Part shown: positions 4,682 to 11,409 of the stretch, piece after piece
Layout: every line of letters begins with the position of its first letter
Position numbering within the stretch: position 1 is the first letter of the stretch
Assembly: GCA_001872725.1 (NCBI GenBank)
Contig: MNWR01000076.1
Location: forward strand, 1 to 40,919
DNA from: Proteobacteria bacterium CG1_02_64_396
GTDB taxonomy: Bacteria; Pseudomonadota; MNWR01; CG1-02-64-396
Direction: 5' to 3'
Length of the DNA: 40,919 nt
Made by a program: the position numbers and the translations under genes
The notes under the pieces: model-generated
Seen by the model: the letters and a program-made list of their open reading frames with translations, nothing else
Databases searched by the model: none
What the model was told of the DNA's origin: nothing

Positions 4682-6237
4682 ATGACCGCCGATGCCCAAG
4701 CCGTTGATCTCCCGCCCGCCATCACCCCCGGGCCGACCCCCGACACCCCCACCCGCGACCCGATCGATCCCATGACCCTGGCCAAGCAGGCGCCGGGGGT
4801 GATCCTGAGCCTGCTCGGGTGGTGGGGGGGGATCGCCCAAGGGCAGGGGGGGTGGATCCTCAACCTGATCTTCCTTGCCGGATTGGGGCTGCTGCTCTAC
4901 CGGCTCACCCTGGTTGGAGCGCTGCTGCAAGGAGGCGGAGCGCCGATTCCCCGGCTTTGGTTCAGCCTGCTGCTCCCCTTCACCCCCTTCGCCCCACCCC
5001 CCAACGCCACGATCCCACCCACCCCGCCGAGCCGGTGGACTTGGCTGCACACCCCCTATCTGGCGCTGGGCCTCATGGCGCTGGGGGCGGCCCTGTGGCT
5101 GGGATGGTCGGGGGGGCTCTCGACCTGGCTGGGACATGCCTTTCTCGATCAATGGGATGCCCAGGCGCGCCAATACCTACACGACGGTCGCAATACCGCG
5201 TTGGCGATCTTGGCGGTTGGGGAGCTGCTGCACGGCCTGCTGTCGGTGATTGAACACTTCACCCTCACCGTGGCCCCAATGGGGATGGGGGTCGATATCT
5301 CGCTCGGTCAGGTGGTCGCCCCCATCGACGAGGTGTTGGTCCGCTTCAACGACATCATGCTCGCCGCCACCGCCTCGTTGTGGATTCAGCAGATCTTGCT
5401 GGCGCTGGCTTTGGAGGGGCTCTTTGCGGTGGTGTTGCCGGTGGCGGCGGGGGTGTGGCTGGTCTCCCTCTTCCCCTCGGCATCGAGCCTGTTCTTGCGC
5501 CAGTTGGCGATGAAGATGGTGATGGTGACGTTGTTTGTGCGGCTGGCGATCCCCGCCATCGCCCAGGTCGGGATGCTGGCCGACCACTACGTCTTGGTGC
5601 CGCAACAAGATCTGACCACCTCGACCATCACCACCCTGGCCCGGCAGGTCGATCAAGGATCGATGCAATTCGCCGAAGAGCTCAGCCACATGGACGAAAC
5701 AAAGCCGCCCCAACCCAGGACGAAGGGGTGTGGTCGACCATCAGCCATTGGTGGGTCAAAAAACGGGATGCGGCGACCAGCAAGGTGCTCCAAGCCAAAG
5801 ACATCGCGGCGGCCCAGATCGACCACGCCATCGCCAACACCAAAACGGCGGCCCAATCGCTCCAAGAGCGGCTCGACACCGCCTCGGCTTCGCTGAGCAA
5901 AGCGGCCTCGGCCTTCAGTCCCACCCACTTTTTCGATTGGGCCAAGAACAAGAAAAAAGAGCTGTGGCATCGGGTTCAAACCCAATACACCGACCTCAAG
6001 CTCAAGATGGAGCAGATCAAGCAGCGGGTGCTGCACCTGATCGCCATCACCTTAATCCAGGTGATCGTGCTGCCGCTGCTCACCCTGTGGCTGATGAAGG
6101 TGCTCTTCGCCTGGGTGGCGGGGCCTGAGCAATACGCCCGCTTCGAAGAGGGGTTGCTGCGGCGCAAGCAAGAGGTAGATCGGATGCGGAATCAGTTGTG
6201 GGGAGGGGGCGCAAACAAAGTGGGGGCTACAGGGTGA
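4682..6237 (+). pseudogene. Multi-pass membrane protein, reading frame broken by an apparent 1-nt deletion near 5690-5705
   Basis: Starts at ATG 4682 with AAAGGAA upstream. The first frame gives ~338 credible residues: a Pro-rich N-terminus, then several TM segments (LILNLIFLAGLGLLLYRL; YLALGLMALGAALWLGW; ILLALALEGLFAVVLPVAAG; MVMVTLFVRLAIPAIA). It continues to ELSHMDETK and then becomes low-complexity nonsense to 5896. The next frame carries the natural continuation from about KAAPTQDEGVWSTISHWW: an Ala/Gln-rich amphipathic helix and a C-terminal TM hairpin (LIQVIVLPLLTLWLMKVLFAW). One extra A in GAAAC at ~5697 would restore a single 518-aa protein. A separate second gene starting at GTG 5728 (AGGA upstream) is a weaker alternative. 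No family was recognised. It is divergent from the MscS gene. Confidence 0.6.
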
Positions 6238-9355: not shown

Positions 9356-11409
9356 TCAAGGGGGAGGGTTGCCTCCCCTATCGAGCAAACGTTCAAGTAG
9401 GGGGGCGATCAGGGTCAACCCAAGACGACTCAGGTGGTTGTCATCGCGGTAGAGAGGCTCCCCCCCTTGTTCAACCGGACAGATCTCGCCGGGGCAGAGG
9501 AGCGGCGTCGGATCGACAAGGTGGACCGGGAAACGGCTCGACAACGTCTGCAACCCTTGAAAGAGCGGCTCCTGTCGCTCCAGATGTTCGAAATGGGTGG
9601 GGCCTGAGGGTAGGTCGCCGCCCCAGCTCTCGGCCCGGGCCATCAACCGGGGCACATCGAAGCCGGGATCGGGATTGTCGGCCAGCCAGATGACCTCGGC
9701 GCCGTGCTCGGTGAAAAACCTTGCGGTCTGCTCCAGCCCATTCTGAAAGAGGCGGGGGTTGTCGGCGGTGTCGGCGCCCGGCACCAAAGGGCTGGGGCGC
9801 AGGGGGGCTTCCCGGTAACGGGTCGGTTCTGTGTAAAAACCCCAATGGGCGGTTAGAACCACCCTCTGGATGGAGGGGGTGGCTCTGATCCAATCGGCCA
9901 CCTTTCGGTTGAAAGCCAAACATCTAGCCCCGTCGCTACCTTCGCTGGATCCGGTCCCCAACAGGGGGGCACACCCCGACATCTCCAGAATGGTGAGGCC
10001 ATGGATGAGGGGATCGGGCAAAGCCTCGAAGGGAGCCAGAAGATTGCCCGCGTGGGAGTCGCCCCACACCACGATACGTGGAGGCTCCTCCTCCCCACCG
10101 AAGGCGATACGGCTCCCGGCGCCGAAGGCTTCGTACTTGAACTTGGGGGCGGGAGAGCTCTGCTGGCGATGCTTCGCCCCCCAAAAAGCCCTGGCTTCGG
10201 GAAAAAGCTTCCGTACATAACCCCTCCACGGCGTTGGCGGCAGGGCCTCGTGTTGCAGGTCGATCACCCGCTGGGTCACCCGTTGGGGGAATCCCCCCCC
10301 CACCTCGACCGAAACGGCAACCGCTACCAGCAAAGCTGCCGCCCCTGCGGCGAAGCCCAGCAGGACGCGGCGGGTTAGCACGCCGCTCTTGCCCCGGAAG
10401 GGGCGCTCGACCCAGCGCCAGGTCGCGGCGGCTAACACAAACGCGGCGACCAGGATCGCCGCCTGCTGCCCCACCCCCGGCGGTTGCAGGGTGACGTAGC
10501 GGGTGAAGACAAGCAGGGGCCAGTGCCACAAATACAGGGAATAGGAGATCAGGCCAACGAAAACCAGGGGGCGCCACGACAGCGCCCGACCACCCCGATA
10601 CCCCCCCCCGCCCCGGCGTGAAGGATCAACCCCGCCCCCACCACCGGAACGAGCGCCCGCCAACCGGGAAAGGGGGTCAGATCGTCGAGCAAAAAGACCG
10701 AACCGAGAATGAGCACAAGCCCCACGCCCCCGACCCAATCGCGCTGGGTTTTGCCTTCCAAGGCTGGGAGCGCACCCAGCGCCAACAATGCTCCAACCAA
10801 AAACTCCCAGGCCCGGAACACCGGCAGATAGAAGGCCCCCTTGGGCCACCCCCCCACCACCCACATCCCCAAGCCGAAACTGGCCAGCGCCAAGATCCCC
10901 AACCCAAATCGCACCCCCCCCTTGGCGTAGCGTAGAAGCAACCATAACAGGAGGGGAAAAACCAAATAGAACTGCTCTTCGAGCGACAGCGACCAGATGT
11001 GCAGCAGCGGCTTGGTCAGACTGGGGCCAGCGAAATAGCCGAATCCCTCCAAGAACCGAATGTTGACCAACCCCAAAGCAGACGCCGCCAGGGAGCGCCC
11101 GAATTCGATCAGGTCGTAGGGAAGCAGCAACACCGAGGCGGCAACGGCGCTGACGATAAGGACCAAAATCAGCGCTGGGACGATGCGTCGCACCCGCCGC
11201 TCGAAAAAGGCCGGAAATGAAAACCGCCCCTCGACCATCTCGCGGTGGATGATCGCGGTAATCAAATAGCCCGAGATGACGAAGAAGATGTCGACCCCGA
11301 CAAAGCCCCCCCCGAACCCCGCGACCCCCAGGTGAAACAGCATCACCGGCAGGATCGCCAAGGCCCGCAGGCCGTCGATGTCGGGGCGGTGGGGGAAAGG
11401 AGCGGTCAT
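9356..11409 (-). pseudogene. OafA/YrhL-type acyltransferase with C-terminal SGNH domain, split at a G9 tract
   Basis: The N-terminal half (from ATG 11409; TTG 11415 is an alternative) is an acyltransferase-3 membrane domain: PDIDGLRALAILPVMLFH with the catalytic-type His, FGGGFVGVDIFFVISGY, then LLHIWSLSLEEQFYLVFPL. It runs out of frame at a run of nine G (10601-10609 on the plus strand as C9). The other frame resumes exactly where expected (LSWRPLVFVGLISYSLYLWHWPL is the next conserved block, here split by my notation) and leads to an SGNH hydrolase-like domain with VVWGDSHAG and a late DDNH motif. G10 or G7 would restore a ~685-aa enzyme. Such proteins O-acetylate surface polysaccharides. 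Either phase-variable OFF state, true pseudogene or homopolymer error. It starts 9 bp after the FNR gene. Confidence 0.75.
10601..10609. repeat. C9/G9 homopolymer at the acyltransferase frame junction
   Basis: Nine consecutive C on the plus strand, bounded by GATA and GCCCC. On the coding strand it would encode Gly-Gly-Gly. The frame is broken exactly here; one more G, or two fewer, joins the two halves. A second G9 tract lies in frame in the same gene (10293-10301). Confidence 0.8.

Follow-up and report, generated by a model that had tools for sequence, protein, structure and literature searches.

The window, a 40,919-nucleotide stretch of a draft bacterial genome assembly, contains a gene that is, by its domain matches, an AT3-SGNH O-acyltransferase gene, and its reading frame is broken at a run of nine guanines (10601-10609). 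The rest of the gene appears intact, and a change in the length of the run alters the frame. We tentatively favor unselected slippage as the explanation, at close to an even chance: a G9 run present by chance would have changed length and turned off an otherwise intact gene. The features are collected in Table 1.

Table 1. Features of the acyltransferase gene, in window coordinates.
Feature	Position	Strand	Remarks
AT3-SGNH O-acyltransferase gene, whole	9356-11409	minus	frame changes at the G9 run
5' part: AT3 domain as far as the tract, followed by about 15 out-of-frame residues and a stop	10549-11409	minus	predicted from PF01757 and a homologue profile
3' part, out of frame with the 5' part: final AT3 TM helices and SGNH domain	9356-10600	minus	predicted from PF01757, PF19040 and a homologue profile
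G9 run at the frame break	10601-10609	minus (C9 on plus)	in the predicted TMH8-TMH9 loop
Second G9 run, same gene	10293-10301	minus	in frame, harmless
G8 run, same gene	10914-10921	minus	in frame
G8 run, same gene	11306-11313	minus	in frame

The AT3 frame opens with an ATG at 11409 (frame span 10549-11409/11415) and stops at 10549, while the SGNH-bearing frame is the same frame shifted by one base and runs down to 9356. The 5' part matches PF01757 over profile positions 3-257 (E 7e-24). The 3' part matches positions 266-325 of the same profile (E 1.6e-5, taken alone under the curated cut-off) and, downstream of this match, the full SGNH domain PF19040 (E 4e-45); its translation contains both the GDSH and the DDNH motifs, which hold the catalytic Ser and the Asp-His pair. 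These matches bear out the preliminary description, which had called the gene O-acetyltransferase-like. A fused C-terminal SGNH domain is present, but in a different frame from the AT3 part, and a codon-usage Viterbi scan detected the 3' part solely as an extension of the AT3 part and gave it no separate start. AT3-SGNH homologues in many phyla are single open frames; those recovered by a scan of genome contigs, which may have omitted the source genome's own record, were all distant. The predicted membrane enzyme probably acetylates surface sugars, its substrate being, by prediction, an extracytoplasmic sugar. A sequence search of solved structures with the acyltransferase returned no match.

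Both frames were also aligned to a profile of full-length homologues (n = 58), where the AT3 frame matched positions 5-270 and the SGNH frame positions 274-644. Because the matches end at 270 and resume at 274, the junction coincides with the tract with a margin of no more than three residues, in agreement with the earlier claim that the two halves lie in different frames and meet at the G9 run. In the Viterbi scan, the frame switch falls at 10584/10585, which is 16 bases away from the tract. When the gene is aligned to the 11-helix topology published for AT3-SGNH proteins (PMC7448272, PMC9833829), the tract appears to sit in the loop that precedes ISYSLYLWHW, the helix that we take as TMH9. 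Rejoining the frames requires a shift of -1, and the frame offset is such that G10 or G7 would restore a single enzyme, as had been calculated. The tract also reaches the poly-G/C threshold of at least nine that PMC5953494 applies to phase-variable genes. Two runs of at least nine in one gene are somewhat unusual (Poisson P 0.007; 373 segments examined). The frame break does coincide with the tract, though it is one among several such breaks in the assembly.

The acyltransferase gene retains 80 of the 82 columns that are at least 90% conserved among the 58 homologues, a share (0.976) equal to the median of intact homologues, and no second lesion was found in it. A single lesion together with conservation at the level of intact homologues implies that the break is either an artifact or, if genuine, recent or reversible. 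Judged by the residues that its sequence keeps, long decay of the gene is excluded.

According to the slippage model, the genome's bias toward the glycine codon GGG would have produced the G9 by chance, in a loop of the AT3-SGNH O-acyltransferase that is rich in glycine. The run would then have changed length by slippage, presumably in the cell, so that the frame shifts once TMH1-8 of the AT3 domain have been read. Translation would stop about 15 residues further on, giving a product that lacks TMH9-11 and the SGNH domain, and the enzyme would be off. TMH9 is described as lining the acyl-donor cavity (PMC9833829), and for the enzyme studied in PMC7448272 the SGNH domain was shown to be necessary to acetylate the target. 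Loss of function is likely, because the 5' product lacks TMH9-11 and the SGNH domain, and we infer that the enzyme is inactive in this sequence. Reverse slippage could restore the frame, so that the gene would be switchable in principle. A break within three residues of the tract and the retention of 80 of 82 residues would fit a recent or reversible event of this kind. Counted against it are the meningococcal AT3 O-acetyltransferase that is phase variable through a poly-G tract inside its gene (PMC5953494), a distant homologue that carries a G10 run, and the dependence of breaks on run length, which a sequencing or assembly error would produce equally well.

The frequency of G runs was examined in a genome sample of 41 stretches (about 710 kb in total, window included). 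The source genome measures 2.94 Mb and is the sole member of its class among the compared genomes; the window has a GC content of about 64%. Among glycine codons, GGG is used most often. We counted 28 G8 windows in the window where 16.9 were expected, and 327 G9 windows genome-wide; by extrapolation, the genome holds about 180 distinct tracts of at least nine. In 373 predicted coding segments (window, L129-L148), 18 coding runs of G≥9 were observed versus 14.7 ± 3.2 expected when synonymous codons were shuffled within genes, and no excess of such tracts over this codon-usage expectation was found. The length and place of the tract are as codon usage gives. Among gene-spanning runs of at least nine in the roughly 710 kb, 49 of 51 are in frame, in genes of many kinds; the two that break genes are the acyltransferase G9 and the G16 of a DUF3540 gene. 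One further run lies at a gene boundary. Length-8 gene-spanning runs left in frame number 205. The preliminary description had read the tract as the mark of a switch. With 49 of 51 long runs in frame, and with breaks in or beside G/C runs that also hit non-surface genes, a run of G≥9 is not supported as a sign of switching in this genome. Separately, in the same coding segments from the window and L129-L148, G7 and G8 runs outnumber those of the synonymous shuffle about twofold (143 vs 79 and 86 vs 33), and this excess drops between lengths 8 and 9 (P 0.0025), which perhaps reflects selection against slippage-prone lengths.

The Viterbi scan, which recovered 42 of 42 simulated indels, and the survey of tracts revealed further broken genes. 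Single-base breaks lie in an alpha/beta hydrolase gene at G8 (L161 7270-7277), in a methyltransferase gene at C7 (L135 6744-6750) and in a GGDEF gene near two G6 runs (L141 17902-17916). The DUF3540 gene is broken at its G16 (L133 16415-16430; contig C29), with halves matching profile positions 7-42 and 46-131; for this gene and the GGDEF gene, the break is confirmed by a Pfam match on both halves. None of the four is a typical phase-variable surface gene. Breaks are commoner at runs of at least nine than at runs of 7-8 (2/51 vs 2/584; Fisher P 0.034), a difference that slippage and sequencing error predict equally. Some additional observations were made alongside these. A pentapeptide-repeat protein is encoded near the broken DUF3540 gene. 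Within the window, a predicted membrane protein without a Pfam match (4682-6234) has another frame break near 5697-5735, which is not at a long homopolymer. In a membrane-protein gene at L155 11883-12741 (contig C23), the frame switches several times close to a G11 run, and the gene is possibly decayed; its product looks glycosyltransferase-like by eye and has no Pfam match.

The main rival to slippage is an assembly or sequencing error, in which case the real tract would have a length that preserves the frame, and the gene would encode a complete enzyme. The assembly is a draft in 109 contigs, its breaks are concentrated within or next to G/C runs (one of them at G16), and all but two of the conserved acyltransferase residues are kept. 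On the other hand, the 205 length-8 runs and 49 longer runs that remain in frame show that the assembly is mostly right at homopolymers, such tracts usually being called correctly, and one break falls at a run as short as C7. We consider an error unlikely on balance, although it is the strongest competitor.

The preliminary description had proposed a phase-variable switch. In such a contingency locus, selection would maintain the tract and the tract would slip often, toggling the acetylation of a surface sugar as in meningococcal pglI. The parts of this proposal that hold are the gene family, the tract at the published threshold of at least nine, the break at the tract and the single lesion in an otherwise intact gene; pglI itself, with its genic G9-15 tract (PMC5953494), provides a precedent from the same family. 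What does not hold is the use of the tract as evidence of a switch, given about 180 such tracts per genome at the frequency expected from codon usage, with three further G8-G9 runs lying harmlessly in the acyltransferase gene itself. The link to a surface structure is predicted from the gene family. The neighboring genes encode a thioredoxin-reductase-like flavoprotein, an unassigned product, MscS channels and histidine functions, and the locus is not a glycan or polysaccharide locus. Across the phylum, a G8 run followed by the TMH9 motif occurs in 0 of 398 other genomes, only the window matching (399 genomes in total; none of the others shares its class).

One distant homologue carries a G10 run, in frame and at the same codon position, on two near-identical MAG contigs labeled Chlorobiaceae and Methylococcales (L076 4109-4118; L078 has the same sequence). 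The G10-bearing contig has a GC content of about 45%, and at that loop position the runs in the remaining full-length homologues do not exceed six. The SGNH part of this homologue stops early, near the contig end. The G10 at first looked like strong support for phase variation, but its weight fell because the MAG group, which has few runs of G≥9, carries those that were examined in housekeeping genes as well. We count it as weak, since the loop is glycine-rich and some 96 homologous loci were inspected. Taken together, dedicated phase variation appears improbable, more so than an assembly error. A broader version, in which the TMH8-9 loop is a recurrent contingency site where unrelated lineages (G9 here, G10 there) independently kept a tract at the same codon position, slippage of which deletes the final helices together with the SGNH domain, seems very unlikely.

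Recoding would leave the G9 in place and yield some full-length enzyme through ribosomal -1 frameshifting or RNA polymerase slippage. The needed shift is -1, the run is homopolymeric and a hairpin of eight pairs follows the tract (10587-10569), but the RNA downstream folds no better than shuffled sequences (z 0.08) and 58 of the 58 full-length homologues used keep a single frame across this point, so we regard recoding as highly improbable. A decayed pseudogene would account for the broken frame, yet the one lesion and the conserved-residue retention equal to that of intact homologues leave this reading with next to no credence.

If switching were real, a phase-variable gene for surface acetylation would be present in a lineage that is the only one of its class among the compared genomes, and the acyltransferase would add to the known AT3 precedents, pglI and oafA. 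The firmer lesson is methodological. A GGG-preferring genome carries about 180 runs of G≥9, nearly all of them harmless where they fall in genes; because such runs abound, the tract-length thresholds of phase-variation screens yield many false candidates there.

Several known systems allow comparison with the acyltransferase gene. Neisseria meningitidis pglI encodes a pilin-glycan AT3 O-acetyltransferase that is phase variable through a genic G9-15 tract (PMC5953494, PMC11130364). Like the gene described here, it belongs to the AT3 family and has an in-gene poly-G run of at least nine. In contrast to our case, its switching is documented in paired isolates and its tract varies across strains, and a meningococcal genome averages about 15 such tracts versus an estimated 180 or so here. 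In Salmonella Typhimurium oafA, which shares the AT3-SGNH architecture and is likewise lost by repeat slippage inside the gene, contraction of a 7-bp tandem repeat abolishes the O:5 epitope (PMC9705250); it differs in that the repeat is not a homopolymer and that the substrate and phenotype are known. Haemophilus influenzae oafA, also an AT3 gene, is phase variable and is counted among the tetranucleotide-repeat genes, its copy in the first genome being frameshifted (PMC9558356). It resembles the present gene, itself a predicted surface O-acetyltransferase, in the frameshift of the first genome copy, whereas its repeat is of another type and its switching has been shown in clinical isolates. 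Finally, in Propionibacterium acnes, G/C runs vary in length and break some reading frames; this variation followed clades, and the authors read it as slow accumulation instead of active switching (PMC4746626). For the acyltransferase tract, known here from one genome, this slow-accumulation model is the one that we tentatively favor.
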